Positions 1,770 to 39,941 of a stretch of 64,000 nt of DNA are shown here, piece after piece. How positions within the stretch are numbered: position 1 is the stretch's first letter; every line of letters begins with the position of its first letter. The stretch is from Zhihengliuella salsuginis (GTDB lineage Bacteria > Actinomycetota > Actinomycetes > Actinomycetales > Micrococcaceae): contig NZ_BMXK01000009.1 in assembly GCF_014651715.1 (NCBI RefSeq), positions 124,001-188,000 on the forward strand. Direction: 5' to 3'. The position numbers were made by a program, and so were the translations under genes. A model generated the notes under the pieces. The model worked only from the letters and a program-made list of their open reading frames with translations, ran no database searches and was not told the origin of the DNA.

Positions 1770-3421
1770 GCGACGCACCAGAGCAGACCACCAGCCGGGC
1801 CGCGCAGCGCGGCCCCGAGGTCGTCGAGGGGCGCCGCGCCCGGCGGGCCCAGCGCCGACGGATCCAGAAGATCCTCGCCGGCTCCGTCGGCGCCGTGCTC
1901 GTCCTCGGGGCCGGCGGCGGCGTCGCCGCGGCGGGGATCTTCGGTGTGCCCAGCGCCGCCGGGGACCTCGGCATCACGCGGTCCGAGGTTCCGGCCGGCG
2001 AGGCCGTGTTCTCCTGCCCCCCGGTGCCACGCGTGGTGGAGGGCAGCACGGCGGAGGGAACCGATCCCCAGTTCGCCGCCGACTCGGAGTCGGCCGAGTC
2101 CGCACTGCGGGCGGCCGTGGTCAGCGACGCCGCCGAGCGACTTCCCGGCAGCGCCATCACGACCCTGGAGGGCGAGGACATCGAGCGCCTCGCCCCGCAG
2201 ATCGACCCGGCCGAGGCCGAGGAGGCGGCAGGTGCAAGCGCCGACGGCTACAGCGGGCAGCGGGCCACGGTGCGCAGCGGCGTGGACGAACCGGACTGGG
2301 CCGTCCTGCGCGCGCAGCCGCTCGGCGGGCTCAAGTCCCTGGCCGGGCAGAGCCGCGCCTACCAGGCCGAAGACGGCGACCTGGCCGGCTTCGCCGCCTC
2401 GACGTGCCGGCCGCCGTCGAACGACCAGTGGATCACCGGCGCCTCCACCGAGGTGGGGCGGACGGGCCTGCTGATGCTCGCCAACCCGTCCGCCTCGGCG
2501 GCGACGGTCAATCTCGACGTCGTCGGTTCGACGGGCCGCGCCGACGCGGGCAACCTGCGCGGGATCGTCCTCGGGCCCGGGCAGACGAAGAACATCGTGC
2601 TCGCCGGCTTCATCGCCGACGACCCCTCCGTCAGCGTGCGCGTCCGGTCCACGGGCGCACCGGTGAACGCCGTCGTGCAGCAGTCCGTGCTGCGCGGGCT
2701 CACCCCCGGCGGCGTCGAGTACCTCGAGGCGGGCGAATCCGCCGGCCCCGCACAGGTGGTCCCCGGCGTCATGGTGCCGGAGGAGTCCAACCTGCCCGCA
2801 GACGACGTCGCCGACGCCCGCCCCGAACTGCAGATCACGAATCCGGGCTCGCGCGAGGCCGAGGTGAACGTGCGGATCTTCCGGACGAGCGGCGAGGTCG
2901 ACGTGCCCGGCGGCGCGACGGTGACCGTGCCGGCCGACTCCGTGGCGACGCTGCCGCTCGACGGGCTGGGGGAGGGGAGCTACACGGTCGCCCTGCAGTC
3001 GGACGAGTCGGTCGTCGCAGGTGCTCGTTCGGTGCGCGGCACCGAGGAGTCCGGACTCGACTTCGGCTGGGCGGCGTCGGCCAAGCGTCTCGGCAACCAG
3101 CACCTGCTGGCCGTGCCGCAGCTGGCCCCCGTCCATCTCGTCTTCGGCTCGGCCGGCGGAGCCTCCGAGGTGACGCTGCGCCCGATCGCCGCCGACGGCG
3201 GCATCGGCGAGGCCTCCACGATCGTGCTCGACGGTGCCACGACCAGGACCTTCGCCCTGGACGACCTCGAACCGGACGCCGTCGCCGTCCTGATCGACGC
3301 TTCCGGCGAAGCGGTCTTCGGGGCGCAGCTCGTGCTCGCGAGTGGCAACGGGATCTCCATCCCGTCCATCCCGCGGGCGAGCGAGGGCCAGCGCAGCATC
3401 GCCGTCGACGTCACGCGTTAG
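1766..3421 (+). CDS. DUF5719 family membrane-anchored protein
   Basis: A 551-residue protein with a basic cytoplasmic N-terminus (RRARRAQRRR near residue 25), one membrane anchor at about residues 36-60 and a long acidic extracytoplasmic region rich in beta-type sequence. There are few cysteines and no recognisable catalytic motif. This organisation, and the position directly after a large membrane glycosyltransferase and before the Rv3259-like and DUF3499 genes, fits the DUF5719 family of actinobacteria. It probably acts at the cell surface with the upstream gene, since its ATG overlaps that gene's stop. Its stop overlaps the stop of the convergent gene by four bases. The biochemical role is unknown. 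Confidence 0.75.
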   Translation: MSDAPEQTTSRAAQRGPEVVEGRRARRAQRRRIQKILAGSVGAVLVLGAGGGVAAAGIFGVPSAAGDLGITRSEVPAGEAVFSCPPVPRVVEGSTAEGTDPQFAADSESAESALRAAVVSDAAERLPGSAITTLEGEDIERLAPQIDPAEAEEAAGASADGYSGQRATVRSGVDEPDWAVLRAQPLGGLKSLAGQSRAYQAEDGDLAGFAASTCRPPSNDQWITGASTEVGRTGLLMLANPSASAATVNLDVVGSTGRADAGNLRGIVLGPGQTKNIVLAGFIADDPSVSVRVRSTGAPVNAVVQQSVLRGLTPGGVEYLEAGESAGPAQVVPGVMVPEESNLPADDVADARPELQITNPGSREAEVNVRIFRTSGEVDVPGGATVTVPADSVATLPLDGLGEGSYTVALQSDESVVAGARSVRGTEESGLDFGWAASAKRLGNQHLLAVPQLAPVHLVFGSAGGASEVTLRPIAADGGIGEASTIVLDGATTRTFALDDLEPDAVAVLIDASGEAVFGAQLVLASGNGISIPSIPRASEGQRSIAVDVTR

Positions 3422-3948
3422 GGTCCGCGCAGGTTGCTGCGGCCGTAGGTCGAGTCGACCTGCTCGGGACTGAGGTTCAGCAGCTCGGCGACGAGCTCGA
3501 TCACCACATCGTGGACGAGCTCCGGCAGTTCGGCGGGGGAGGGCGAGAGCTGCTCCACGGGCTGCCGGTAGACGACGATCTGCTGCAGCCCGGCCACGTC
3601 GCGCTCCCCGGCCGACGTGTCGACCGTCTGCGGCCTGACGCGGAGGCTGCGCCCCAGCGGCGGGGACTCGCCACGGGCGGCGGCCCGGTCCAGGCCGTCC
3701 TTCTCCGGAGCGAAGGACACCATGAACTGGATCCCGGCCACCCGCGTGCCCTGCAGCTGCTCGAGCCGCATGCTGGACTCGGCGACCAGGTCCTCGAACC
3801 GGTCCTGGCGCGTCCTGGACCCCGGCAGCGACGGCGGCATCATCGGCCCCCGCATGCCGCGGCCGTGCCTGTTTCTCCGGCGCCGGCTGAACCCCCGGTC
3901 GCCGCCGGGGCGGTGCTCGGGACCGGAATCGAACGTGAATGAACCCAT
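3418..3948 (-). CDS. Rv3259-like 'metallopeptidase family' protein (zincin-like fold, HExxH not present)
   Basis: A 176-residue protein. From about residue 31 the segment MRGPMMPPSLPGSRTRQDRF closely resembles the start of mycobacterial Rv3259, as I remember that sequence. Family members are annotated as metallopeptidases, but here the expected HExxH is HDVVIELVAE, so classical zinc-peptidase chemistry is doubtful. The first 30 residues are basic and low-complexity. The ATG is supported by a leaderless arrangement, TAGGCT followed by six bases and ATG on the minus strand. The divergent neighbour is DUF3499, the same pairing as Rv3258c/Rv3259. Function is unknown. Confidence 0.75.
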   Translation of the reverse strand: MGSFTFDSGPEHRPGGDRGFSRRRRNRHGRGMRGPMMPPSLPGSRTRQDRFEDLVAESSMRLEQLQGTRVAGIQFMVSFAPEKDGLDRAAARGESPPLGRSLRVRPQTVDTSAGERDVAGLQQIVVYRQPVEQLSPSPAELPELVHDVVIELVAELLNLSPEQVDSTYGRSNLRGP

Positions 3949-4017
3949 CTGACGAGCCTATCCCGCCCGCCGTGCCGGTCCACCGTTCCGTCGCCGGAGG
4001 CGGTAGGGTGGGGGCTC

Positions 4018-4455
4018 GTGGGATCAAATCGTCTGTGTTCGCGTACGGGCTGCCAGCAGCCGGCCATCGCTACTTTGACGTACGTGTACGCCGACTCCAC
4101 GGCGGTGCTCGGCCCGTTGGCCACGTACGCGGAGCCGCACTGCTACGACCTCTGCGCGATCCACGCCGGCCGCCTCACGGTGCCGCGCGGCTGGAACGTC
4201 CTGCGGCTGGAGATCCCCGACGCCCCGCGCGTCGCCCCCGACGAACTCTCCGCCCTGGCCGACGCCGTCAGCGAACGGCCCGGAACCCCCGGCCGCGAGA
4301 ACGCCGCGCCGCCGTCGGACGCGGCGGAGACGGCGGACGAGGACCACCGCACGTGGGGCCAGGCACTGACCCCGCCGGAGGACGCCGGCGTCGACGGTAC
4401 CCCGCAGCCGGGCGAGAAGCCGCGCCTGCGCATGCTGCGCGAACCCAACCAGTAG
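4018..4455 (+). CDS. DUF3499 domain-containing protein, Cys-rich zinc-ribbon-like
   Basis: A 145-residue protein starting at GTG. Its N-terminal half carries paired cysteines, CSRTGC near residues 7-12 and HCYDLCAIH near residues 40-48, which look like a treble-clef or zinc-ribbon metal site. The C-terminal half is acidic, Pro/Ala-rich and probably disordered. This matches DUF3499 (Rv3258c family), found beside the Rv3259-like gene. The start is supported by TAGGGT eight bases upstream of the GTG, the spacing of a leaderless mRNA. Function is unknown; a small nucleic-acid or metal-binding protein is only a guess. Confidence 0.85.
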   Translation: MGSNRLCSRTGCQQPAIATLTYVYADSTAVLGPLATYAEPHCYDLCAIHAGRLTVPRGWNVLRLEIPDAPRVAPDELSALADAVSERPGTPGRENAAPPSDAAETADEDHRTWGQALTPPEDAGVDGTPQPGEKPRLRMLREPNQ

Positions 4456-8964: not shown

Positions 8965-10869
8965 CTAGCGCCGGTAGAGCTCCTCGATCTCCCCGGCGCA
9001 GGTCTCGACGACGGCGGCGCGCTTGAGCTTCATCGACGGCGTCAGGTGGCCCGAGGCCTCCGTGAACTCGCGGTCGACGATCGTGAACTTCTTGACCCCC
9101 TCGGCGTGGGAGACCGTCTTGTTCGCGGCATCGACCGCCGCCTGGATCTCGGAGAGGACCTCGGGGTGCCCGGCGGCCCGGGCGACGTCGAGGCCCTCGA
9201 GCCCGCGGGCGGCGGCCCACTGGGGCAGTTCGCCGGTGTCGAGCGTGACCAGTGCGGCGACGAAGGGGCGCTGGTCGCCGACCAGGACTACCTGGTCGAC
9301 GATCCGCCACGCGCGGATCAGCTCCTCGAGCGGGCCGGGGGAGACGTTCTTGCCGCCGGCGGTGACGATGAGGTCCTTCTTGCGGCCCGTGATGGTCAGG
9401 AACCCGTCCTCGTCCAGCTCGCCGAGGTCGCCGGTGGCGAAGAACCCGTCCTCGGTGAAGGCGGCCGCGGTCGCCTCCCCGTTGCCGTGGTAGCCGGCGA
9501 AGACCCCCACGCCGCGCAGCTGCACCTCGGAGTCGTCGGCGATCCGCACGGTCGTCCCGGGGGTCGGGAAGCCGACGCTGCCGACCCGCACGTAGTCGGG
9601 CTGGTTCACGGTGGCGGGCGCGGTCGACTCAGTCAGCCCGTAGCCCTCGAGCAGCTGCACCCCGGCACCGCGGAAGAAGTGGGCCAGGTCCTCGCCCAGT
9701 TCGCTGGCGCCGGAGATCGCGAACTTCGCCTCACCGCCGAGGACGGCGCGCAGCTTCGGGTAGAGCACCCGGTCGAAGAACGCGTGCTGCGCCCGGACGG
9801 ACAGGGGGAGCCTGGTGCCGGCTCCGCGGCCCACCGCGTCCCGGTGCCGGGACACCTCGATCGCGATCCGTTCGGCGCGCGCGAAGAGCCGGCCCCTGCC
9901 GGACTCCTCGGCCTTGGAAAGGGCGCCGGCGCGCACCTTCTCGAAGATCCGGGGCACCGCGAGCAGGAACGTCGGCTTGAAGCCCGCCAGGTCGCCCATC
10001 AGGTCGGCGACGTCCGGGCCGTGGGCCACGGTCGTGCCGGAGTGCACGCAGCACTGCTGGACGGCCCGCGCCAGCACGTGCGCGAGCGGCAGGAACATCA
10101 GGGTCCGCGAGCGGCCGTGGACGACCTCGCGCATGTGCGGGACGAGGTTCACGGCGACGCCCGCGAAGTTGCCGTGCGTCATCACGCAGCCCTTGGCCCG
10201 CCCGGTGGTCCCGGACGTGTAGACGAGGGTCGCGGTGTCGCTGTAGCCGGCCGAGGTGCGCGCGTCCTCGACCTGCGCGTCGGAGACCCGCGAGCGGGCT
10301 CCGGCGGCCAGGAGCAGCGCCAGGTCGCTGCCCGCGGTCAGGCCCGCGGGCACGACGCCGCCCGTCGCCTCGCCGGCGGCGCCCCCGCCCACGCTGTGCG
10401 CGGCATCGAAGCAGAAGATCTGGACGTCTTCGCCCAGCTTCTCGACGGCGTCCTCGACCACGGCGGCGCGCTCGGCCGACTCCGCGAACACGTGCCGCGC
10501 ACCGGAGTCCCGCAGGATCCACTCGACCTGGACGGCGGAGCTGGTCTCGTACACGGGCACGCTGACGGCCCCGGCGAACCAGACGGCCTGCTCGACGAGC
10601 GCCCACTCGTAGCGGGTCCGGGACATGATCGCCACCATGGAACCCGGCTCGACGCCGCGGTCGATGAGGGACTTGGCGAGGCGGCGCACCAGCGCCACGT
10701 ACCGGGGCGTGCTGATCTCCGTCCACCGGCCCGAGGAGTCCTTGACGGCGTAGAGCGGCGAGGCCGAGTCCGGGTCGGCGTTCTCGCGGTTCATCCGGTC
10801 GATGAGCAGCTGGGTGGTGTTGTAGGACTTGGGGAGCTCGACCAGCAGGTCGGTCCTGGCTTCGCGCAC
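8965..10869 (-). CDS. Long-chain fatty-acid-CoA ligase (AMP-forming, FadD15-like)
   Basis: A 634-residue adenylate-forming enzyme that activates fatty acids to acyl-CoA in two steps via acyl-AMP. Motifs in order: the P-loop YTSGTTGRAKG (around residue 225), GYGLTESTAP, FFATGDLGELDEDGFL with the hinge after it, and GRKKDLIVTAGGKNVSP. This order and length match bacterial long-chain synthetases, including mycobacterial FadD15. The GTG start has tcaggagaga upstream, and a TAGACT -10 lies at about 10904-10909 on the minus strand. It is transcribed separately from pmt. Chain-length preference cannot be read from sequence. Confidence 0.92.
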   Translation of the reverse strand: MREARTDLLVELPKSYNTTQLLIDRMNRENADPDSASPLYAVKDSSGRWTEISTPRYVALVRRLAKSLIDRGVEPGSMVAIMSRTRYEWALVEQAVWFAGAVSVPVYETSSAVQVEWILRDSGARHVFAESAERAAVVEDAVEKLGEDVQIFCFDAAHSVGGGAAGEATGGVVPAGLTAGSDLALLLAAGARSRVSDAQVEDARTSAGYSDTATLVYTSGTTGRAKGCVMTHGNFAGVAVNLVPHMREVVHGRSRTLMFLPLAHVLARAVQQCCVHSGTTVAHGPDVADLMGDLAGFKPTFLLAVPRIFEKVRAGALSKAEESGRGRLFARAERIAIEVSRHRDAVGRGAGTRLPLSVRAQHAFFDRVLYPKLRAVLGGEAKFAISGASELGEDLAHFFRGAGVQLLEGYGLTESTAPATVNQPDYVRVGSVGFPTPGTTVRIADDSEVQLRGVGVFAGYHGNGEATAAAFTEDGFFATGDLGELDEDGFLTITGRKKDLIVTAGGKNVSPGPLEELIRAWRIVDQVVLVGDQRPFVAALVTLDTGELPQWAAARGLEGLDVARAAGHPEVLSEIQAAVDAANKTVSHAEGVKKFTIVDREFTEASGHLTPSMKLKRAAVVETCAGEIEELYRR

Positions 10870-10924
10870 GGTTCTCTCCTGACGAGGCGGTCTTCGGTCA
10901 ACAGTCTAGTCAGCGGCGCGCCGT

Positions 10925-10952
10925 GCCCCGGCCGCCGGTCCCGACCCGGGGC
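10925..10952 (-). terminator. Hairpin immediately after the pmt stop
   Basis: Seven-bp perfect arms GCCCCGG/CCGGGGC with a 14-nt loop, adjacent to the pmt stop codon and upstream of the acyl-CoA synthetase promoter. A short T-less hairpin, so only moderately certain. Confidence 0.5.
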
Positions 10953-12707
10953 CTATCCCCAGCTGGGCAGCCAGACCCTCAGGTGCCAGGCCTCGTAGCT
11001 GATGGTCTGCCCGGTCCAGACCGGCCAGAAGAACGCCGAGAGTGCGATCGCCAGCGCCATGAACACCCCGACGACGGCGAGGCCGGCGCGGCGGCGCTCG
11101 GACGCCACCGCGGTGCGGGCGTCGTCGTGCTCCGGGGGCGCCGCGGACGGCGGCAGGTGGCCCAGCGGCGGGCCGGCCGGCGAGCCCGGCAGCAGGCGCG
11201 GGCGCCGGCCGGCGGTCGGCGCGCCGAGCGCGAGCCCCAGCACGTAGGCGAGGGCGAGCATCATGAACGGGTGGAAGGCGATCGTGTAGAAGAAGAACAT
11301 GGTGCGCTCGGGGTAGAACCACCACGGGACGAACCCGGCGGCGACGCCGGCGAGGATCGCGCCGGCCCGCCAGTCGCGGGCCCCGGCCCAGAAGAACAGG
11401 ACGACCAGCAGGGCCAGGGCCGCCGACCACCAGATGAGCGGGTTCGGCAGGTCCGTGACGACGCGGCTGCACGTCTCGAACGCGCAGCCGTCGGCGGCGG
11501 TGGGGGAGTCGTAGTGGTAGAGGACCGGCCGGCCCGCGAAGAGCCAGGTCTCCGGGCCGGACTCCCAGGAGTGCTCCGACCCGAGCCCCCGGTGGAAGTC
11601 GTAGGCGCTGCGGTGGTATTCGGCGAGCGAGCGCAGCGCATCCGGGACCAGCGGCCACGCCGCCTCCGGGTTGTTCTCCGCCCACTGGCGGTGGTAGCCG
11701 CCCGCCGTGCGCAGCCATCCAGTCCACGTCGCCAGGTACGTGGCGGCGGCCGCGGGGATGATGGTGAGGAACGCCGGGATCCCGTCGCGGAAGAGCCCCG
11801 CGGCGCCCCAGTACCGCACCCCGGCGGCACGGCGCGCGCCCACGTCCCAGAGGACCGTCAGCAGGCCGAACGCCGCGACGTACGCGAGCGCCGACCACTT
11901 GGTGCCCACCGCCGCGCCGAGCATCACGCCGGCGACGAGCCGCCACGGGCGCCACGCGTTCCACGGCCCGTAGAGCAGCTGCGCCGCACGCTGTCCCGGC
12001 ACGACGGCGGCCGCGGCCAGCGCGGCGAGGCGGCGGCGTCCGTCGTCGCGGTCGAGGAGCAGCACGTAGAACGCGGCGAGGCAGAAGAACATCGTGAAGA
12101 TGTCCAGCAGGGCGGTGCGCGACATGACGATGTGGTGGCCGTCGACGGCGGTGAGCAGTGCCGCGATGCCGCCGAGCAGGATCGAGCCGAGCAGCTTGCG
12201 GCCCACCAGGTAGACGAGGAGAACGGAGAGCGTCCCCGCCACGGCCGGGGCGAACCGCCAGCCGAGCCCGTTGTCGGTGCCGAACGCGAGCATGCCGAGC
12301 CCGATCAGCCACTTGCCCAGGGGCGGGTGGACCACGTAGGAGCGCTCGTCGAGGGGCTGCGGGTCGCCCGCGAGGAAGGCCTCGTCGGCACCCTCGTCGG
12401 GCCACTGCCGCTCGAAGCCCGACTGGAGCAGCGTGAAGGCGTCCTTGACGTAGTAGGTCTCGTCGAAGATCAGATCGTGCGGGGTGGACAGGTTCACCAG
12501 CCGCAGCCAGGCCGCCAGGGCCGTGATGAGCGCAGGAACGAGCCAGAAGGCGTGGCGGGTGGCGAAGGCCCAGACGGCCGCCGGCGTGCCCGGGATCCGC
12601 GTCCGCGGCGGCCCGCCGGTGCCGGGCGGCGCGGACGGACCCAGCAGCCGCTCGCGCAGCGCGGTCCGGCTCGTGGCGGCCTCGGGCGATCGGATCCATC
12701 TGGTCAC
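10953..12707 (-). CDS. pmt: Dolichyl/polyprenyl-phosphate-mannose protein O-mannosyltransferase (GT39)
   Basis: A 584-residue multi-pass membrane enzyme that transfers mannose from polyprenyl-phosphomannose to Ser/Thr of secreted proteins. After the first helix come LSTPHDLIFDETYYVKDA, with the conserved acidic DE, and VVHPPLGKWLIGLGM; both are hallmarks of actinobacterial Pmt (Rv1002c family). A large loop (about 300-400) with RSAYDFHRGL and the Cys pair around CAFETC precedes the final helices. The frame extends 24 codons upstream, but that would overlap rsmI. TAGAGT seven bases before GTG (VTRWIRSP) supports the start used here. Divergent from rsmI, as in mycobacteria. Confidence 0.92.
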   Translation of the reverse strand: MTRWIRSPEAATSRTALRERLLGPSAPPGTGGPPRTRIPGTPAAVWAFATRHAFWLVPALITALAAWLRLVNLSTPHDLIFDETYYVKDAFTLLQSGFERQWPDEGADEAFLAGDPQPLDERSYVVHPPLGKWLIGLGMLAFGTDNGLGWRFAPAVAGTLSVLLVYLVGRKLLGSILLGGIAALLTAVDGHHIVMSRTALLDIFTMFFCLAAFYVLLLDRDDGRRRLAALAAAAVVPGQRAAQLLYGPWNAWRPWRLVAGVMLGAAVGTKWSALAYVAAFGLLTVLWDVGARRAAGVRYWGAAGLFRDGIPAFLTIIPAAAATYLATWTGWLRTAGGYHRQWAENNPEAAWPLVPDALRSLAEYHRSAYDFHRGLGSEHSWESGPETWLFAGRPVLYHYDSPTAADGCAFETCSRVVTDLPNPLIWWSAALALLVVLFFWAGARDWRAGAILAGVAAGFVPWWFYPERTMFFFYTIAFHPFMMLALAYVLGLALGAPTAGRRPRLLPGSPAGPPLGHLPPSAAPPEHDDARTAVASERRRAGLAVVGVFMALAIALSAFFWPVWTGQTISYEAWHLRVWLPSWG

Positions 12708-15316: not shown

Positions 15317-16285
15317 GTGTCTGATTCGCGCGTGACCCCCGGTTCGACCCCGCCCGCCTTCGTGTCCGAGGAGGCCGACGACGTCGTCGTCCCCGAGGGG
15401 GCGAGCCCGCAAGAGGCCGAGCGGCTGGCCGCCCAGGCGGCCCGGCGCCGTCGTCGTTCCGAATACCCGCCGGCGCCGGAGCCGCTGCCCGTCCCGGTAC
15501 CCGACAACCACACGCACCTGGAGGCGCGGGCAGTGCGGAGCGCGGTGTCCGTCGCGGACGCGCTCGACACGGCGAACGCCGTCGGCGTCCCGGGCGTCGT
15601 GCAGGTCGGCTGCGACGTCGAGTCCTCGAGGTTCGCCGTCGAGGCCGCCGCCGCGGATCCGCGCGTGCTCGCCGCCGTCGCCATCCACCCGAACGACGCC
15701 GCGCCGCTCGCCGAGGCGGGCGGGCTCGACGCGGCGATCGTCGAGATCGACGTGCTCGCCGGGCACGAGCGCGTGCGCGCGGTGGGGGAGACCGGGCTCG
15801 ACTACTTCCGCACCGGCCCCGAGGGGCACGCCGACCAGCGGGCCTCGTTCGAGGCGCACCTGGACATCGCCGTACGGCGCGGCAAGGCGCTCCAGATCCA
15901 CGACCGCGACGCGCACGACGACGTCGTCGACGTGCTCCGCAGCGCTCCGCGGCTTCCCGAGCACGTGGTCTTCCACTGCTTCTCCGGAGACGCGCAGTTG
16001 GCGCGGATCTGCAACGACAACGGCTGGTACATGTCGTTCGCCGGCACCGTGACCTTCAAGAACTCGACGGGACTGCACGAGGCGCTCTCGCTGGCGGACC
16101 CGGAGCTGGTCCTGGTCGAGACGGACGCGCCGTACCTGACCCCGCACCCCTACCGCGGCCGGCCGAACGCCGCCTACATGACCCCCTACACGGTGCGGTT
16201 CATGGCCGGGCACACCGGGCGCGATCTGGCCGGGCTCTGCACGCAGCTGGCGGCGAACACGCGCCGCGTCTACGGGGAGTTCTAG
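15317..16285 (+). CDS. tatD: TatD family metal-dependent deoxyribonuclease
   Basis: A 322-residue TIM-barrel hydrolase. Metal ligands are visible as DNHTHL (HxH, near residue 66), GETGLDYF, QIHDRDAHDD, FHCFSGD and VETDAPYLTP. Family members act as 3'-5' DNases or RNases and are linked to DNA repair. About 60 extra disordered residues precede the barrel. An ATG three codons upstream was rejected because it overlaps the TAGGAT -10, which lies seven bases before this GTG. The 3' end overlaps the convergent MauE-thioredoxin gene by 4 bp. Confidence 0.92.
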   Translation: MSDSRVTPGSTPPAFVSEEADDVVVPEGASPQEAERLAAQAARRRRRSEYPPAPEPLPVPVPDNHTHLEARAVRSAVSVADALDTANAVGVPGVVQVGCDVESSRFAVEAAAADPRVLAAVAIHPNDAAPLAEAGGLDAAIVEIDVLAGHERVRAVGETGLDYFRTGPEGHADQRASFEAHLDIAVRRGKALQIHDRDAHDDVVDVLRSAPRLPEHVVFHCFSGDAQLARICNDNGWYMSFAGTVTFKNSTGLHEALSLADPELVLVETDAPYLTPHPYRGRPNAAYMTPYTVRFMAGHTGRDLAGLCTQLAANTRRVYGEF

Positions 16286-17409
16286 GACTCCACCGAGTCG
16301 GCGACGACGCCGGCCAGCGCGGAGATGTACTCGGCCCCGGTGGTCGGGCCCGCGGCGATGGAGCCGTCCGGCGCCACGAGCAGCGCGGACGGCGTGTAGC
16401 GGACGCCGAGCAGCTGCTGGATCGCGAGGCTGTCGTCCACCAGCACCAGCTCGCGCACCTCGGGGTGCTCCTCGGCGAACTGCTCCGGCGCCCGCGAGAC
16501 GAGCAGACGCACCCCGACCCGGTCGCCGAACCGCTCCCGCCAGTTGTCGAGGGCCTCGAGCACCTCGTCGCACGCCCGGCAGGCGGGGCGCACCAGGATC
16601 AGCAGGGTCGCCCCTCGGGGGAGCGACTGGCGCAGACCGCGCGTCTCGGCGGATCCGGCGGCGCGGACCATGACCTTCGGCAGCGCCACGCCGGTCAGAT
16701 CCTCGGGCTGGGCGTCGTCCAGCGACGACGGCGCGGGACGCTCGCTCAGCAGCCAGCGCACCGGGGTCCCGCCCGCGGGCTCCTCTGCTTCGCCGCCTGC
16801 CGGATCCCCGGCCGGCTCCGGGGCCGTCCGGCCGGCCCCGGCCGGGGCCGCGACGATCGTGCCGGCGCCCGGGCCGCGGCCGGTGAGCTGCTGCCACGTC
16901 AGGGGTACCGCTGCGGCGACGACGACGGCAGCGAGCCACCACCAGTCGCCGGGGGCGAAGGCGAGGAAGTCGGAGGGCACGGAGCGTCCGGAGCCCGCGA
17001 AGACCACCGCGCCGAGTCCCAGAACCACGAGGCCGAGGTTGCGGGCCAGGTCCCAGCGGGTGGTCGCGCCCCGGCCGAATCGGCCGAAGCAGGCGCAGTC
17101 CTGCGCCTCGCCGCTGCGGAGCACCGCCGCGATGAGCCACGTGTAGAACAGGCAGAGAGCGAGGGCGAGAGCCGCGACGACGAGGGCGGCCGGCCAGGGG
17201 GTGGTGACCAGCCCGATGGCCAGCAGGATCTCGAGCCAGGGGTGGAGCCGGCGCACCAGCGGGTGGTTCACGATCCGGGGCACGCCTGGCCCCGATAGCG
17301 GAGTGGCCGTTACCTTTTCTTGAGATTCCGTCATGATCTTCGCCACGCCAGCGACGGTGAGGATCAGGGCGAGGGTCAGAGGTGTGGTGACTAGTGCAAA
17401 CGTCGTCAT
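16282..17409 (-). CDS. MauE/DoxX-like membrane domain fused to a thioredoxin-fold domain
   Basis: A 375-residue fusion. Residues 1-165 hold four to five membrane helices of the MauE/DoxX type, with SGEAQDCACFGRFG between helices supplying a Cys pair. After a Pro/Ala/Gly-rich linker, residues about 230-375 form a TlpA/peroxiredoxin-like thioredoxin domain with LLILVRPACRACDEVLEAL (CRAC active site) and a cis-Pro region at RYTPSALLV. Such fusions are proposed to pass reducing equivalents across the membrane, as in maturation of secreted proteins. The ATG at MTTFALV follows GACAAT by seven bases; an ATG nine bases upstream (MVDM) is also possible. Confidence 0.8.
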   Translation of the reverse strand: MTTFALVTTPLTLALILTVAGVAKIMTESQEKVTATPLSGPGVPRIVNHPLVRRLHPWLEILLAIGLVTTPWPAALVVAALALALCLFYTWLIAAVLRSGEAQDCACFGRFGRGATTRWDLARNLGLVVLGLGAVVFAGSGRSVPSDFLAFAPGDWWWLAAVVVAAAVPLTWQQLTGRGPGAGTIVAAPAGAGRTAPEPAGDPAGGEAEEPAGGTPVRWLLSERPAPSSLDDAQPEDLTGVALPKVMVRAAGSAETRGLRQSLPRGATLLILVRPACRACDEVLEALDNWRERFGDRVGVRLLVSRAPEQFAEEHPEVRELVLVDDSLAIQQLLGVRYTPSALLVAPDGSIAAGPTTGAEYISALAGVVADSVES

Positions 17410-17481
17410 GTCGACCATTGTCGCACCCGCGGTCCCGCCCCGTTCGAGGCGGCGCCGGGCGGTGCGGACGCCGTCAGCTGT

Positions 17482-18992: not shown

Positions 18993-19907
18993 GTGACTTC
19001 TGATGCAGCCCGCCCCGCTTCCGGTTCGCCGGCCCCGCTTCTCGGCGCGACCGAGATCCGCCGACTGGCCGACGAACTCGACGTGCGCCCGACGAAGACG
19101 CTCGGGCAGAACTTCGTGATCGACGGGAACACCATCCGCCGCATCGTGGCCGCCGCCGACCTCGGCCCGGACGAGGTCGTGCTCGAGGTCGGTCCGGGGC
19201 TGGGATCGCTCACGCTCGGCCTGCTCGACGCCGCCGAGCGCGTCGTCGCCGTCGAGATCGACCCGAAGCTCGCCGAGCGCCTGCCGCGGACCATCGCCGA
19301 GTTCCGCCCGGAGCGGGCCGGCGCCCTCGACGTCGTGCTCTCCGACGCCATGCGGGTCACCGAGCTGCCGCACGCCCCGACCGCCCTGGTCGCCAACCTG
19401 CCCTACAACGTGGCCGTGCCCGTGGTGCTGCACCTGTTCGAGCACTTCCCCACACTGCGGCACGGGCTGGTCATGGTCCAGGACGAGGTCGCCGACCGGC
19501 TCGCCGCGACGCCGGGTTCGAAGATCTACGGCATACCGAGCGTCAAGTCCACCTGGTACGCGGACATGCGCAAGGCCGGGATCATCGGCAAGAACGTTTT
19601 CTGGCCGGCCCCCAAGATCAACTCCGGCCTCGTCGGCTTCGAACGCCACGAGCCGCCCGCGACGCCCGCCAGCCGCGAGCAGGTCTTCGCCGCGATCGAC
19701 GCGGCCTTCGCCCAGCGCCGCAAGACGCTGCGCGCCGCCCTGGCCGGCTGGGCCGGCAGCGCCGCGGCCGCCGAGACCGCCCTCCGCGCCGCCGGCGTCG
19801 ACCCGCAGGCCCGCGGCGAGAAGCTCGGCATCGAGGAGTTCGCCGCCATCGCGGCCCACCACCCCGACGTCGTGGGCGCGCCCGCCGCGGGGGAGGGCGG
19901 CGCGTGA
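18993..19907 (+). CDS. rsmA: 16S rRNA (adenine1518/1519-N6)-dimethyltransferase
   Basis: A 304-residue KsgA/Dim1 enzyme that dimethylates two adenines in helix 45 of 16S rRNA. Motifs: [28 protein letters not shown] (SAM site), the acidic end of motif II in VAVEIDPKL, and the catalytic NLPYNV. The ATG three codons upstream overlaps the TAGGAT -10, so the GTG seven bases after that box is preferred (leaderless). The TGA overlaps the ispE GTG, so the two are coupled. Confidence 0.96.
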
Positions 19908-28065: not shown

Positions 28066-28635
28066 ATGACCGAGCAGAACATGAAGAAGCAGGGTTTCGA
28101 CCGTCGTACCGTGAACAAGGCGGCCGCCTGGTCGGTGCCCGTCATCGCCGCCGCTGTGAGCGCGCCGATGGCCGCCGCCTCGGTCGTGACGCAGTTCGAT
28201 GTGGCCATCTCGAGCGAGTGCGTCGGCGGCATCACGATCCCGCTGACGAGCATCAATGCTTTCGGCGATCCGACCTTCGAGATTGCGGCAGCTACTGGCA
28301 CGATCCCGGTCGGCACGACGTTCACCCTGTCGAGCGCCGCGGTGCTGAGTGCAGGCGTCATCGACACCGGCGGCAACCTGCTCGACGTGTCGCTGCTCGG
28401 CGACGGTTCGCTGCTGATCACCACCCAGGCCGAAATCGTTGCGGGCTCGCCTGTCACGATCGCGGTGCCGATCTCCGACGGCGCGATCAACACGGACCTG
28501 CTCGGCGACTACTCGCTGACCTTCACCTCGGCACCGTCCGGGTTCGAGGAATCGGGCCCGGGCGCCAACTCGGCGTCCGTCAGCAACACGCAGGTCACCG
28601 CCGCCGGCGCTCAGGTCAGCGTCTGCGCTGCCTAG
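28066..28635 (+). CDS. Secreted protein with twin-arginine-like signal, unknown function
   Basis: A 189-residue protein. DRR at residues 12-14 is followed by TVNKAAAWSVPVIAAAVSAP and a likely cleavage after AMAAAS-type residues 36-39, a Tat-like signal seen in many Arthrobacter-type exported proteins. The mature part is Ser/Thr/Val/Ile-rich, probably a beta-sandwich, with two cysteines placed near its ends (about 52 and 187) that could form a disulphide. There are no catalytic motifs. A strong ggaggggaact site precedes the ATG, and the 147-bp upstream gap is markedly AT-richer than its surroundings and likely holds its promoter. Adhesion or surface-layer roles are only guesses. Confidence 0.7.
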   Translation: MTEQNMKKQGFDRRTVNKAAAWSVPVIAAAVSAPMAAASVVTQFDVAISSECVGGITIPLTSINAFGDPTFEIAAATGTIPVGTTFTLSSAAVLSAGVIDTGGNLLDVSLLGDGSLLITTQAEIVAGSPVTIAVPISDGAINTDLLGDYSLTFTSAPSGFEESGPGANSASVSNTQVTAAGAQVSVCAA

Positions 28636-31494: not shown

Positions 31495-32106
31495 GTGGTC
31501 ACACTTCTCACCGTCTGCACCGGAAACATCTGCCGTTCCCCGTACGCGCACCTCCTGCTCGGCAACCGACTCGACGAGATCGCCCCGGGGGCCTTCTCCG
31601 TGGCGAGCGCCGGCACCATGGGCCTGACCGGCAAACCCATGGACGAGCGCAGCGCAGCCCGCCTCGCGGCGACCGGGGTGAGGGAGCGCGCCTACACCGT
31701 CGACTCGTTCTCGGCGCGCCGGCTCGGCGATGCTGACGTGGCCGGGGCCGACGTCGTGCTGGCGCTGACCCAGGAGCACCGCGACGCGGTGATCCAGATG
31801 AGCCCGCGCATGCTCAAGCGGGCCTACACCGTGCGTGAGTTCGCCCGGCTCGTCGCGCACGTCTACCGCGAGGCGGGCGACTCGATCCCCGGCGGGGCGG
31901 GTCCCGAACAGGTCGCCGCGCGCTGGAAGGCGCTGATCAAGTACGCGACGCTCTACCGCTCGGGCCTGAGCGCGCCCGCAGCCGATGACGACGTCGTCGA
32001 CCCCTACCGCCGCGAGGACGCCGTGTACGACGAGATGGTCGACCAGCTGCTGCCCGCGCTGGAGGCGATCATCGACCTCGAACGAGCCGCAGCGGCGCGC
32101 GCGTAG
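31495..32106 (+). CDS. Low-molecular-weight protein tyrosine phosphatase
   Basis: A 203-residue phosphatase. The N-terminal VCTGNICRSP is the CX5R(S/T) active site (Cys8, Arg14), and VVDPYR near residue 167 supplies the general-acid Asp. It is about 40 residues longer than typical LMW-PTPs owing to inserts. TAAGCT six bases before the GTG supports a leaderless start. The convergent neighbour is a BY-kinase pseudogene; such phosphatase/kinase pairs control exopolysaccharide synthesis, so this was probably its partner. Confidence 0.93.
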   Translation: MVTLLTVCTGNICRSPYAHLLLGNRLDEIAPGAFSVASAGTMGLTGKPMDERSAARLAATGVRERAYTVDSFSARRLGDADVAGADVVLALTQEHRDAVIQMSPRMLKRAYTVREFARLVAHVYREAGDSIPGGAGPEQVAARWKALIKYATLYRSGLSAPAADDDVVDPYRREDAVYDEMVDQLLPALEAIIDLERAAAARA

Positions 32107-32184: not shown

Positions 32185-33732
32185 TCAGGAGGGACGGCGG
32201 GCGTGGCGCACCGGCCGGCCGCCGATCGCCTGCGCGAACTCGTCCTCGTCGGGGGCGGCCTCGGCCGGCACCACGTCGGCTGCCGCGGCCGTCGGCTTCT
32301 TGTCGTCCGAATTCGTGTAGTAGTAGTACTTCCCGTAGTACCCGTACTGCGCCGAATCCGCGCCCTTGGTGGGAACCTGGTTGAGGATCGTGCCGAGGAT
32401 GTGGGCGCCGACCTTGGTCAGGTTGCCGGCCGACTTCTCCAGCTCGTCGACGGTCGTGTGGCCGGCCTTGATCGTGATCAGGGCGCCGTCGGCCGCCTTC
32501 GCCAGGATCGCCGCGTCCGTCACGGGCAGCAGCGGCGGGGCGTCGATGAGCACGACCGCGTCGCGCGAGAGCTCCGCGAGCAGGTTCTTCATGGCCTTGG
32601 AGCCGAGCAGCTCCGACGGGTTCGGGGGGACGCGGCCGGCGGCCAGGAGTTCGAGCGCCGGGGCGTCCGTGTAGGGCATCAGCACGTCGTCCAGTTCAGC
32701 TGCGCCCGAGAGGACATCCGTCAGGCCGGCGCCGGCCGGCAGGTGGAACAGGTCGGTCAGCACCGGGCGGCGCAGGTCGGCATCGATGAGGACCGTGCGC
32801 CGGCCGGTGGCCGCGATGGCGACGGCGAGGTTCGCGGAGATCGACGACTTGCCCTCGCCCGGAACGGAGGAGGTCACCACGATGATCCGCGGCGGGTTGT
32901 CCACGTCCATGTAGGAGAGGTTGGTGCGCAGCTCCCGCAGGGCCTCGGCGAAGGCGTGGGCGGCGCGGTCGCTGGTCTTGGCGTTACCGGACTCGACGAC
33001 CTGGCGGCCGCCGGAGAGGCGGTTGTCGGCAGGGATCGTGCCGACGACCGCCTGGCCGATTCGTTCGACGGCCTCGACCGAGCGGATGCGGCGGTCGAGG
33101 TGCTGGCGGATCAGCGCGTAGCCCAGCCCGAAGGCCAGACCGGCGACGCCGCCCACGGCGAGGGCGAGCTTGGTGTTGGGGGAGACCGGCGCCGTCGGCA
33201 GGGCCGCACGGCCGAGCGGGACGATGCGCACCAGCGAGGGCACGGCCTGGTCCTCGAACCCGGCGGATTCGATCTCCTCCACCTCGGAAGCCAGGACCTC
33301 GACCTAGGCGTTCGCGATCTCCTGGGCCTGGGCGGGATCGGTCGACTGGGCGCTGATGCGGATCTCGGCCGTGTCGGACGGAACCTGAACCGTCACGTCG
33401 TTGAGCAGCTGGTTCTCGCCCGTGTCGAGGCCCAGGTCCTCCTTGACCGCGACCGCCACCGGACGGGTGCCGGCGATGCTGGAGTAGGACGTGGCCTTCG
33501 ACTTGGCGAGGCTGTCACCGGCGGAGGCGAGCCCGACGTTGTCGGCTCCGCCCGTCGTCACGAGGCCCGAGGACGAGGCCTGGTAGATCTTGGGCTGCGT
33601 GAGCGTCCACACGAAGGCGAGCAGGACGGCGGCGAGCAGGATCGCGAGGATGCCGCGCCAGTAGCTGCGCACCACGGAGAAGTAGTGGCGCAGGTCGGGG
33701 CCGGCGGTCGTCTCGACGTCTTGTGTATCCAA
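32185..33732 (-). pseudogene. Wzz-like / BY-tyrosine kinase (polysaccharide co-polymerase) interrupted by an in-frame TAG (33304-33306)
   Basis: A single frame with one amber codon (QEIANA*VEVLASEVEEIE). Upstream, 142 residues hold a membrane helix (RGILAILLAAVLLAFVWTL) and the Wzz periplasmic part. Downstream are the second helix (LALAVGGVAGLAFGLGYAL) and a complete kinase: Walker A SSVPGEGKSS, A' LIDADLRRP, Walker B VLIDAPPLL and a Tyr-rich C-terminus (YGYYGKYYYY). Homologues usually have ANAW, so TGG to TAG is the likely change. GTG at 33282 could restart the kinase alone. The start is a TTG with gaggga upstream. When intact the protein would control exopolysaccharide chain length, opposed by the adjacent LMW phosphatase. 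Confidence 0.85.
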
Positions 33733-33861
33733 TATGTCAGTCCCTCGGGAGAGTTCGCCCGTCCAGACCGCCGCGCGGCGAGGGACCCGCAATCCCCCCG
33801 GACCGGCCACGGCCTCGACGCGCAACGAAGTGAGCGTGAAAGCGTGTCTTAGTTGAAGAGT

Positions 33862-37562: not shown

Positions 37563-38309
37563 ATGGAACAACGGCCGGACGAAGCCCTCGAGCCGGCTGC
37601 CGCCGACGCCAGGACGTCGCGGGGGGAGGGGCGCCAGTGGCCCTTCTGGGCCAGCTTCGGGCTCAATCTGGTCGTCGCCCTGCTGGTGGTCTCGCTCTTG
37701 CAGGGGTTCGTGATCAAGGTCTTCAACGTCCCCAGCGGCTCCATGGAGCAGACCCTCAACGTCGGAGACCGCATCCTGGTGAACCGTCTCGCCTACGCGG
37801 GAGGCGAACCTGAGACGGGCGACGTCGTCGTGTTCGAGGCGGAGGGCGACTGGGAGGAGGCGGGCGCCGCGCCGGGCGGGCCGCTGCGCCGCGCGGCCGA
37901 GTTCTTCGGGGACCTCACCGGGATCGGGCCCTCCAGCCACCACTACCTCGTCAAGCGCGTCATCGGCACCGGCGGGGACACGGTGGAGTGCTGCGGAGAA
38001 TCCGGAAGCGTCCTGGTGAACGGGGACCCTCTGGAGGAGCCGTACATCCACAACGACTACCCCTTCGTGCGCGGCGCCCGGGACTGCACGAGCACGGGAC
38101 GTTCTCTGCGCTGCTTCGGTCCCATCGACGTGCCGGAGGACTCCCTCCTCGTCATGGGGGACCACCGCTCCAACTCGGCGGACTCCGTCATCCGCTGCCG
38201 AGGGCGCGAGCCCGACGGCGGTGCGTGCCTGCGTCCCGTCGACGACGATGCGGTGCTCGGACGCGTCGTGTTGACGATCTGGCCGCTGGGACGCGAGGGG
38301 CTCGACTAG
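37563..38309 (+). CDS. lepB: Signal peptidase I
   Basis: A 248-residue type I signal peptidase. One N-terminal membrane helix (about 28-48), then VPSGSMEQTLNVGDRILVNRL with the catalytic Ser, HHYLVKRVIGTGGDTVECC with the Lys base, and MGDHRSNSADSV. It cleaves secreted proteins outside the membrane. An acidic insert (about 90-115) lies before the Lys. It starts 8 bp after sufU, with gggag upstream, so it probably shares that transcript. Its TAG lies in a 12-bp palindrome (38302-38313) shared with the convergent gene's stop. Confidence 0.95.
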   Translation: MEQRPDEALEPAAADARTSRGEGRQWPFWASFGLNLVVALLVVSLLQGFVIKVFNVPSGSMEQTLNVGDRILVNRLAYAGGEPETGDVVVFEAEGDWEEAGAAPGGPLRRAAEFFGDLTGIGPSSHHYLVKRVIGTGGDTVECCGESGSVLVNGDPLEEPYIHNDYPFVRGARDCTSTGRSLRCFGPIDVPEDSLLVMGDHRSNSADSVIRCRGREPDGGACLRPVDDDAVLGRVVLTIWPLGREGLD

Positions 38310-39439
38310 TCGACTTCTCGACTGGCCTCGAGCAGGCCGTGGCCCACCAGGTCCGCCACGTGCGCGTCCAGCAGCTCGCGTGCCTGCGGGTGGTCGCCGG
38401 CGGCCGCGACGACTGTCTCGAGCAGTTCCTCCGTGGTTCGCCAGGCAGATGCGGCGCCCCAGAGCAGCGGCCCCAGGCCGTGCAGCACGGTGAGGGCCTC
38501 GCCCTTCAGGACGGCCACGGCCTCCGTCGAGCCGGTGCTGATCCGCACCGCATCGGCCGGGACGATCCGGCGGTACTGCAGGAGCGCCGGATCGGCCGGT
38601 GTCTCACTGCGGGAGAGGTCGAGCGGCGCCCACGCGTCCCCGGGCTCGTCCGCGGGCGGGGCGGCGAGCAGGTCGCGGGCCAGTTCGGCGAGCTGGGTCG
38701 CCTCGCCGTACTCCAACCGCAGCGCCCCGCCGCACGCGTGCAGGGTGCTGCAGAGCCGGACCAGGCCGCGGTCGAGCCAGGCCAGACCGGAGATCTGCGG
38801 GCTCAGGTGTTCCAAGGCCTCGGCCAGGGGAAGCCGGCGGGCGACGGCCCGCTCGCGTCCGGCGAGGCGGTCCAGCACGGCGACCCGCCACAGCACGCTG
38901 CGGTCGACGGCGGGCAGGAGGCCGAGCTCGTCGGGCGCGGCCTGGTCCTTGGGGCGCCGCCCGGAGGCGGGCAGGATGGACAACGGCTTGGGGAAGGGGC
39001 GGATGCCGCGGGCGGCGTCGACGGCCACCGTCTCGTCCGTCAGGTAGGCGAACGAACGGCCCAGCGTCCGCGTCGCCGTCGTCTTGCCCGTGCCGCTCTC
39101 GGCAACCAGGGCGATGGCGCGGCCCGTGACCGGATCGGCGAGTGCCGCGGCATGGAACATCAGCAGCTCGCCGCGACCGGATGCGATCGCCCGGCTCGTC
39201 GCCGTGTAGACCAGCTCCTCGTGGAAGCTGGCCCAGCCCTGCTGGGGCCGGCGCGCCAGCGAGCCGTGCCGGTCCTCGGCCGCGACGGCGTCGGCGGCGG
39301 TCAGCCGGGGATCGCAGCGGGACCACGCGGCCGCCAGTGCCTCGGCCTCGGCACGGGAGAGGTCCGTCGCGGTGATCCTGCCGTCCAGCACCCGGGCCGT
39401 GAAGGCCAGCGGCCCCGACGGGGCGCTGCGGAGCTCCAC
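38306..39439 (-). CDS. HPr kinase-like P-loop domain fused to a PqqD-like C-terminal domain
   Basis: A 377-residue protein. The central part has a nucleotide-binding loop, ALVAESGTGKTTATRTLG (about 155-172), preceded by MFHAAALAD and followed by YLTDETVAVD, the layout of HprK-like kinases (FHAA..., P-loop, DE). The last 75 residues (VLHGLGPLLWGAASAWRTTE ... LVGHGLLEA) read as a PqqD-like fold. HprK-like proteins in lasso-peptide clusters phosphorylate precursors; others are of unknown use. Starts at GTG one base after the DUF2505 stop, so coupled. No HPr or precursor peptide is adjacent. The fold calls come from pattern reading. Confidence 0.6.
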   Translation of the reverse strand: MELRSAPSGPLAFTARVLDGRITATDLSRAEAEALAAAWSRCDPRLTAADAVAAEDRHGSLARRPQQGWASFHEELVYTATSRAIASGRGELLMFHAAALADPVTGRAIALVAESGTGKTTATRTLGRSFAYLTDETVAVDAARGIRPFPKPLSILPASGRRPKDQAAPDELGLLPAVDRSVLWRVAVLDRLAGRERAVARRLPLAEALEHLSPQISGLAWLDRGLVRLCSTLHACGGALRLEYGEATQLAELARDLLAAPPADEPGDAWAPLDLSRSETPADPALLQYRRIVPADAVRISTGSTEAVAVLKGEALTVLHGLGPLLWGAASAWRTTEELLETVVAAAGDHPQARELLDAHVADLVGHGLLEASREVD

Positions 39440-39440
39440 G

Positions 39441-39941
39441 CTAGTTGCGGGCGTCCAGCCAGGCCTTCGCCTGGGTGGCCTGGAGGTTCAGGGCCTTGCC
39501 GAGGTACGGCTCGGCAGCGGAGGCGATCTTGCCGCCCATGAAGGGAATGCTGGAGGTGACCTGCCCGTCCAGCTCGACGACGGTCTCCCCGCCGCGCGCG
39601 ACGAGCTTCTGCGTCGCCTTGACGTCCACGGGGGCGCCGGCGACCTCGATCGTGATCGAGGCCGTGCGGCTGCCGTCGGCGGCGGGGGCCGACCAGACCT
39701 CGCGCTGCGTGACGGTCATGGTGGCGCCGACGAACTTCCGGGCCAGATCCGGCAGGCGGTCGGTCGGCACGGCGCGAACGGACGTCACGTCGAAGGCGCC
39801 GGTGATGGGGCCCGTGACCTGGAAATCGGTCAGCCGGCCGCCGGCCTTGGCGCTGACCTCCTGCACGAACTCGCGGTCGGTGAAGACCGAAGCCACGGCG
39901 TCGGCGGGGTACGGCAGAGTGGTGCTGGCGTTCAGGGCCAC
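39441..39941 (-). CDS. DUF2505 domain-containing protein (SRPBCC/START-like)
   Basis: A 166-residue protein covering the whole domain from LPYPADAVASVFTDREFVQEV to the C-terminal helix ALNLQATQAKAWLDARN. The pattern of an opening strand, a two-helix clamp, a long beta-sheet and a final helix fits the START-like DUF2505 family common in mycobacteria and relatives. A hydrophobic ligand is likely but unknown. aaggag before the GTG fixes the start. It is upstream of, and coupled to, the HprK-like gene, and divergent from mfd. Confidence 0.85.
   Translation of the reverse strand: MALNASTTLPYPADAVASVFTDREFVQEVSAKAGGRLTDFQVTGPITGAFDVTSVRAVPTDRLPDLARKFVGATMTVTQREVWSAPAADGSRTASITIEVAGAPVDVKATQKLVARGGETVVELDGQVTSSIPFMGGKIASAAEPYLGKALNLQATQAKAWLDARN

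Follow-up and report, generated by a model that had tools for sequence, protein, structure and literature searches.

A kinase with a PqqD-like domain co-occurs with a Tat-type signal peptide on unrelated exported proteins of actinobacteria and is a candidate for their modification

In Zhihengliuella salsuginis and related actinobacteria, a kinase of the HprK/PEPCK fold, here joined to a C-terminal PqqD/RRE domain, co-occurs almost perfectly with an N-terminal signal peptide that is common to otherwise unrelated exported proteins, and this signal contains the binding motif published for RRE domains. We consider it probable that the kinase belongs to an actinobacterial RiPP-like system in which the Tat-type signal peptide would serve as the leader and the exported proteins would be phosphorylated, perhaps phosphoglycosylated. 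The kinase gene and its neighbors in the window (the whole stretch of DNA analyzed, 64,000 nucleotides) are listed in Table 1.

Table 1. Features of the window around the kinase gene
Feature	Coordinates	Strand	Basis and remarks
HprK/PEPCK-fold kinase (~residues 1-265) with C-terminal PqqD/RRE domain (~residues 285-374)	38306..39439	-	profiles, AlphaFold2, Foldseek, residue conservation
Discrete PqqD-family (RRE-like) protein, 103 aa	33862..34173	-	PF05402, 44.2 bits (cut-off 23.4)
Candidate substrate, 189-aa secreted protein with signal FDRRTVNKAAAWSVPVIAAAVSAPMAAAS	28066..28635	+	signal profile, E 1.1e-13 in its own genome
Signal peptidase I (lepB)	37563..38309	+	PF10502, 120.9 bits; convergent with the kinase gene, 4 bp overlap
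Low-molecular-weight protein-tyrosine phosphatase (LMW-PTP), Wzb-like	31495..32106	+	PF01451, 66.9 bits
Wzz/BY-kinase (polysaccharide co-polymerase) gene	32185..33825	-	split by an in-frame stop
DUF2505 protein	39441..39941	-	PF10698, 143.6 bits; one base upstream of the kinase gene, same strand

The open reading frame of the kinase begins with GTG, encodes 377 amino acids and contains the P-loop AESGTGKTT. Searched as a single sequence it matched 0 Pfam families above cut-off, with the C-terminal domain lying below detection, and the family libraries returned weak hints, namely HprK_rel_A (TIGR04352; E 7.4e-5) and ScmC (E 3e-4) from NCBIfam, as well as AAA. An AlphaFold2 model, computed from an alignment with 13 relatives (mean pLDDT 89.2, pTM 0.88), matched PEPCK structures with Z values up to 13.7, placing the first ~265 residues in the PEPCK/HprK fold. 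Foldseek likewise paired the model with PEPCK (E 4.7e-5) and with the HPr(Ser) kinase 3tqf_B (E 3.8e-3, probability 0.99). Across 40 homologues, His96, Lys119 and Asp135 were each kept in 38, and position 136 was Glu in 38 and Asp in the remaining 2. The homologues without the P-loop Lys are the second copy at locus L051 and the copy at L060, both from one genome (G099) that also has an intact copy. Based on the modeled fold, the P-loop and the conserved His and Asp, the protein can be assigned to the HprK/PEPCK-fold superfamily. It resembles HPr kinase/phosphorylase and HprK_rel_A in fold, in the P-loop, in the conserved His that precedes it and in the acidic pair that follows; it differs in its HprK_rel_A score of 22 bits, which against a cut-off of 200 leaves it outside that family, and in its C-terminal RRE domain.

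For the C-terminal domain, the family profile was compared with the PDB. The best match in this region was the RRE protein LppB (9x8z_B; E 1.6e-7, profile positions 276-364), and the lasso B1 protein TbiB1 (5v1u) was also matched (E 2.8e-5, positions 290-363). By similarity to these winged-helix RREs of known structure the domain is assigned to the PqqD/RRE type, an assignment drawn from the family profile. Both halves of the original prediction, an HPr-kinase-type P-loop protein and a PqqD-like C-terminus, were thereby borne out, the former by the model and by the conserved P-loop Lys. The family was present in 26 of 118 related genomes (28 profile matches, of which two weak partial ones, in G022 and G086, were left out), and no match was found among 72,556 plasmid records.

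Recurring secreted neighbors were screened for in 39 stretches, comprising 26 kinase loci (27 rows) and 13 named loci. At least one protein with a common N-terminal signal is encoded in 13 of the 39, and by profile none is encoded nearby in the other 26. The consensus of the signal is SRR-x(4)-GAAW(S/A)xP(A/V)(I/V)-x(6)-P-A-x-A|x-S, in which the bar marks the presumed cut, read by eye from the AxA pattern. A profile was made from 17 aligned signals of kinase neighborhoods and searched over whole genomes. WxxP was present in 60 of the 63 distinct signals at E<=1e-3, and one of the three exceptions (L151) looks spurious. In these 60, the residue at W+5 is I, V or L in 59, W+12 is Pro in all 60, W+15 is Ala in 50, and at W+17 Ser occurs in 53 and Thr in 2. 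The Trp lies 15 residues before the presumed cut, and the near-invariant Ser (53/60) is the second residue past that cut. Because the spacing from the twin arginine to the Trp varies (7, 8 or 11) while the Trp and the prolines keep step, the Trp, Pro and Ser form one unit. With its twin arginine, hydrophobic stretch and AxA-like site the signal is classed by sequence as Tat-type; RR is found in 61/61 signals at E<=1e-4, a set selected by the profile, and Ala at the presumed -1 position in 50 of the 61. The signal also holds WxxPx[IVL], in agreement with the motif [Y/W]xxPx[L/V/I/F/A] that discrete RREs of lasso systems bind according to the available part of PMC13381572. Such a hydrophobic helix containing W and P could have another reader.

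After removal of the signal, 60 mature sequences fell into 41 BLAST clusters, and the common part is therefore the signal rather than the cargo protein. Of ten cargo proteins scanned with Pfam, three contain RCC1 or DUF5122 propellers and seven gave nothing at E<=0.01. Signal matches were most numerous in G046, with 17 at E<=0.5 and 15 at the stricter E<=1e-3; the genome of the window has a single confident signal protein, whose gene lies ~10 kb from that of the kinase. The original prediction held that no precursor peptide is nearby. In spirit this did not stand: rather than small peptides, exported proteins of full size with a common signal peptide are the candidate substrates, one of them encoded in the window. 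The accompanying idea, recognition by the PqqD domain followed by phosphorylation by the HprK-like kinase, holds up as an idea.

Among the 118 related genomes, the signal (E<=1e-3) was detected in 26/26 with the kinase and in 2/92 without it (26/28 for the former if the weak partial kinase matches are retained); counted by genus, kinase and signal coincide in the same 14 of 62. Since the signals used to build the profile came from kinase neighborhoods, it would be circular to count adjacency in those loci, and a sample of 394 members of the class was used as the independent test. This sample overlaps the first by at least four genomes (G000, G006, G081 and G087). The genomes counted as having the kinase score at least 215 bits, the next genome scoring 58; 49 of the 68 matches, all below 60 bits, were taken for HprK-like proteins of other kinds or for unrelated P-loop matches and left out. 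The signal (E<=1e-4) was found in 17/19 kinase genomes and in 5/375 others, or 17/19 and 9/375 when signals at E 1e-4 to 1e-3 (G128, G139, G144 and G175) are counted too. For the test that excluded genomes common to both samples, N was approximated at 379. Of the two class genomes in which the profile missed a signal, G329 has its kinase and PqqD genes directly followed by a gene with a variant signal (L113), and in G417 the kinase is present and no signal was detected. In six genomes the signal is present but no kinase was detected (G063 and G081 among the relatives; G081, G242, G348, G426 and G466 in the class), and within ~10 kb of their signals there was no kinase-profile match at E<=1e-3.

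Because the seeds came from kinase neighborhoods, clustering was tested again in those 16 kinase genomes of the class that do not belong to the first sample. A signal gene lies at most 10 kb from the kinase gene in 7 of them, with 0.33 expected. The named seed loci and the class loci are not from the same species, the best match between them over at least 500 bp being 86%.

Several genomes bring the components together more closely than the window does. In Nocardioides (L065) the order is PqqD, nucleotidyltransferase (NTase), Wzc, HprK, PqqD and signal protein, and in a Propionibacteriales MAG (L076) it is PqqD, Wzc, HprK, a small gene, signal protein and NTase, the small gene having only a weak, C-terminal domain-like match to the kinase profile. 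Locus L056 reads NTase, PqqD, Wzc, a PTP-HprK fusion, a weak PqqD and five signal proteins. In L070 and L075 (Demequina) an LMW-PTP domain is likewise fused to the kinase, with four and three signal proteins, respectively, and in L054 and L058 a signal protein, HprK and lepB follow on one strand. By profile, the HprK kinase, a discrete RRE and the NTP transferase occur together in L056, L065, L075 and L076. Where the kinase has no C-terminal domain, a small PqqD-like gene comes next in L056 (20 bits, below the Pfam cut-off), L065 and L070, and probably also in L077, which fits the fusion seen in the window. In more distant relatives (kinase scores of 40-58 bits, with a PqqD match in the same stretch), a signal protein of the W..P kind stands beside the kinase in 8 of the 11 loci L117-L127, found by pattern and by eye without a background rate; these are L117 and L121-L127, not L118-L120, and an LPxTG motif is present in five.

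The discrete PqqD gene of the window, ~4 kb from the kinase gene and beside the Wzz/BY-kinase and LMW-PTP genes, is the only PqqD match above cut-off in its genome, and phmmer of its product against the PDB (E<=0.01) gave no match. This discrete PqqD gene and that of the signal protein had been overlooked earlier. A PF14907 nucleotidyltransferase is also present in this genome, on another contig. Among the 118 relatives, PF14907 is found in 24/26 kinase genomes and 8/92 without the kinase. As a class-wide specific partner it was rejected, being present in 18/19 kinase genomes of the class sample but also in 139/375 others; phmmer of one such NTase against the PDB (E<=1) gave no match. Wzz was likewise rejected as a specific partner (26/26 kinase genomes but also 60/92 others), as was sortase, which is found in 115/118 genomes and is missing from the kinase genomes G039 and G099.

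For the RiPP-like system that we favor, the following sequence of events may be proposed. In the cytoplasm, the PqqD/RRE domain of the kinase, or a discrete PqqD protein, would bind W-x-x-P-x-[IVL] in the hydrophobic part of the signal, and the HprK-fold domain would then phosphorylate the near-invariant Ser two residues past the presumed signal-peptidase cut (mature position 2). Less securely, a PF14907 nucleotidyltransferase encoded elsewhere in the genome might add a sugar or nucleotide to the phosphate; the model for this step is PsmN, which is reported to add a hexose in pseudomycoidin (available parts of PMC8498205 and PMC9266682). The precursor would finally be exported, presumably in a Tat-dependent manner, and cut by signal peptidase I, with a possible tie to surface polysaccharide through Wzz/BY-kinase and LMW-PTP.

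The nearest described counterpart is the family of linear polyphosphorylated peptides (LPP), which the available part of its source (PMC13381572) describes as restricted to Bacillota. There, Ser3 of the LppA core, beside a signal-peptidase-type cut, is the residue that LppK phosphorylates, the RRE LppB and the NTP transferase LppN are clustered with this kinase, and deletion of the NTP transferase left the detected products unchanged. Both systems combine an RRE, an HprK-like kinase, an NTP transferase and a signal peptidase in polysaccharide loci, the NTase here being a PF14907 protein and the putative counterpart of LppN. Both also have precursors with a conserved N-terminus, a variable C-terminus and an aromatic-xxP motif. 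Counted from the printed consensus and numbering in PMC13381572, the LPP cut lies 15 residues and the phosphorylated Ser 18 residues after the Tyr; here the presumed cut is also 15 after the aromatic residue, and the Ser is at +17. The differences, set against what is available of PMC13381572, are several. The aromatic residue is W instead of Y, and the signal departs from the LPP precursor motif YxxPxVLxHQxIxFETxxS in having no HQ/FET part. A twin-arginine signal peptide is found where LPP has a leader and, to export it, an MsbA-like transporter; none of the latter kind was recognized in the gene listings of L054, L056, L058, L065, L070, L075 and L076. The signal peptidase matches PF10502 and may differ from the SipW homologue (archaeal-type) of LPP; kinase and RRE are fused here; cargo reaches several hundred residues and includes beta-propellers, against LPP precursors of 35-200 residues; and one genome can hold up to 17 signal matches (G046, E<=0.5). 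By analogy, the kinase-signal system appears to work as the LPP branch does. It falls outside the definition of LPP because it has no Y-type motif, a Tat-type signal and larger cargo.

With the lasso pathways of paeninodin and pseudomycoidin, as far as described in the available parts of PMC8498205 and PMC9266682, the system shares an HprK-like kinase, which in those pathways acts on a Ser hydroxyl, as well as an RRE (there B1, the reader of the leader) and a nucleotidyltransferase (there PsmN, tied to a hexose on the phosphate). According to the same sources the modified Ser is C-terminal in lasso peptides, whereas the candidate Ser here is beside the leader, and the lasso kinases carry a His-Lys-Asp-Asp motif, to which His-Lys-Asp-Glu would correspond here. 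By the genes scanned, among which neither an AsnB-like macrolactam cyclase nor B2 was found, the locus is not a lasso cluster. Pfam scanning of 20 window genes, of which 19 lie between 26.8 and 45.7 kb, turned up neither a lasso cyclase nor a B2 peptidase nor a radical-SAM family; for cyclase and radical-SAM genes this agrees with the original prediction. In the available part of PMC1569441, PEP-CTERM/exosortase offers a further likeness, in that a single sorting signal is spread over many exported proteins of unrelated sequence, is linked to polysaccharide genes and was discovered by phylogenetic profile; it differs in that the signal here is N-terminal and Tat-like and the partner is a kinase-RRE where that system has a membrane protein predicted to act as a transpeptidase. 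A literature search of a PubMed Central set found no paper that describes the kinase-signal system or contains the signal strings.

Other readings of these data were weighed. The kinase-PqqD protein might act on the machinery of surface polysaccharide (Wzz/BY-kinase, LMW-PTP or a lipid-linked sugar), with the signal proteins co-inherited and read by something else. Wzz/BY-kinase genes are found in 21/39 kinase stretches, above the 13/39 with a signal gene, every kinase genome has Wzz, and the fusions of LMW-PTP to the kinase point the same way. We nevertheless judge this reading unlikely, given that Wzz is so common in genomes without the kinase while the signal is found in 2/92 of them, that an RRE motif in the signal is matched by an RRE-type domain on the kinase, and that in the deeper relatives a W..P signal protein still accompanies PqqD and HprK (8/11 loci). 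A lasso-peptide or other small-RiPP pathway whose precursor peptide was overlooked is, in our estimate, improbable. Related members of the order do have such clusters; in L096, for example, genes that we take to be asparagine-synthase-like adjoin PqqD and HprK-like genes. Lasso clusters are also described as combining HprK-like kinases, PqqD/B1 proteins and nucleotidyltransferases (available parts of PMC8498205 and PMC7533575). Against this stand the outcome of the window scan, the absence of a cyclase or B2 from listings and profiles of L056, L065, L075 and L076, and the two genomes with lasso-type clusters, G093 and G115, in which no signal was present at E<=1e-3.

We give similarly little credence to a purely regulatory role in export, in which PqqD would hold the precursor, a phosphate near the cut would delay or license Tat export or cleavage, and a phosphatase (LMW-PTP or another) would reverse it, so that no phosphate is kept on the mature protein. 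The position of lepB next to the kinase gene in several contexts and the existence of PTP-kinase fusions would suit such a switch, but an NTase that co-occurs with the kinase (24/26) makes more sense if the phosphate is modified further. As for the favored modification of exported proteins, a wider form of it is possible and is put forward tentatively: a general actinobacterial tagging route in which the Tat signal would double as a RiPP leader, the kinase-RRE would read W-x-x-P on many unrelated full-size proteins and phosphorylate the N-terminal part of the mature chain, and the NTase would make a phosphosugar link, leaving the protein to carry a phosphoglycan, or to be anchored to polysaccharide, at residue 2.

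RiPP chemistry is generally thought of as the making of small peptides, and its set of tools, consisting of an RRE, an HprK-like kinase, a nucleotidyltransferase and a signal peptidase, here seems to serve ordinary exported proteins through a portable signal on dozens of unrelated sequences, beta-propellers included. If so, Gram-positive surfaces would have a route of protein modification and sorting whose design recalls LPXTG/sortase or PEP-CTERM/exosortase, and the predicted modification site is clear enough to be open to proteomics at once.

The genes that flank the kinase gene in the window gave a mixed outcome in the neighborhood survey, in which lepB and signal proteins recur. The survey covered 26 loci, the kinase gene of L041 (G018), missed by the simple gene caller, not being among them. 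The DUF2505 gene had been described as coupled to the kinase gene, which is correct as to position (Table 1). In other genomes the DUF2505 cluster was near the kinase only where mfd was also present (7 loci, with one gene between in L039, as well as the window), so the link looks like hitch-hiking; DUF2505 was rejected as a functional partner and is probably a syntenic neighbor that is not part of the kinase system. Convergence with lepB, also predicted originally, was confirmed by the PF10502 match; lepB adjoins the kinase gene or is next-but-one in 12/26 kinase loci, and it is found beside the kinase gene also without mfd in L043, L044, L046, L054 and L058.

Among the more distant HprK-like kinases from the class-wide genome sample, those at loci L117 and L121–L127 had a PqqD match within the same stretch. 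The secreted proteins that adjoin them are short and carry an SRR...W(S/T/A/V)xP signal. LPxTG was found at L121, L122, L123, L125 and L126, and a proline-rich stalk was seen in several of the eight. These loci suggest a second, sortase-anchored branch. Close by in L121 and L122 is an ORF that we take to be LMW-PTP-like; fusions of an LMW-PTP domain to the kinase itself are listed in the table.

Features in the window and at related loci
Feature	Locus	Coordinates	Strand	Remark
MauE-family redox membrane protein gene (PF07291)	Window	16282–17418	−	
Wzz/BY-kinase gene	Window	32185–33825	−	Split by in-frame stop at about 33304
Kinase paralogue	L051 (G099)	10239–11765		P-loop lost
Kinase paralogue	L060 (G099)	3026–4213		P-loop lost
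LMW-PTP–kinase fusion	L056	8924–10318		LMW-PTP at kinase N-terminus
LMW-PTP–kinase fusion	L070	9260–10714		LMW-PTP at kinase N-terminus
LMW-PTP–kinase fusion	L075	9170–10546		LMW-PTP at kinase N-terminus
Possible decaying system	L159 (G063)	19168–19776		Genome with orphan signal protein and nucleotidyltransferase-like ORF

Genome G099 also carries an intact kinase copy, and its P-loop-less paralogues are a possible pseudokinase partner. The kinase was not detected in G063, where the nucleotidyltransferase-like ORF lies about 8–10 kb from the orphan signal protein; this locus may be a decaying system.

Within the same order, lasso-type or related clusters were observed inside polysaccharide loci (L095 and L096; genomes G093 and G115). 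They contain an HprK-like gene and PF14907, with PqqD in L096, together with a small ORF that is presumably B2-like and genes that are presumably asparagine-synthase-like (AsnB). The signal was not found in either genome at E ≤ 1e-3.

Two congeners have an undivided Wzz/BY-kinase gene (524–527 amino acids); the split in the window's gene may reflect a pseudogene or a sequencing error. A PF07291 gene was found repeatedly near the kinase (the window, L054, L058, L061 and others), and its MauE-family product is possibly linked to disulphides of the exported proteins.
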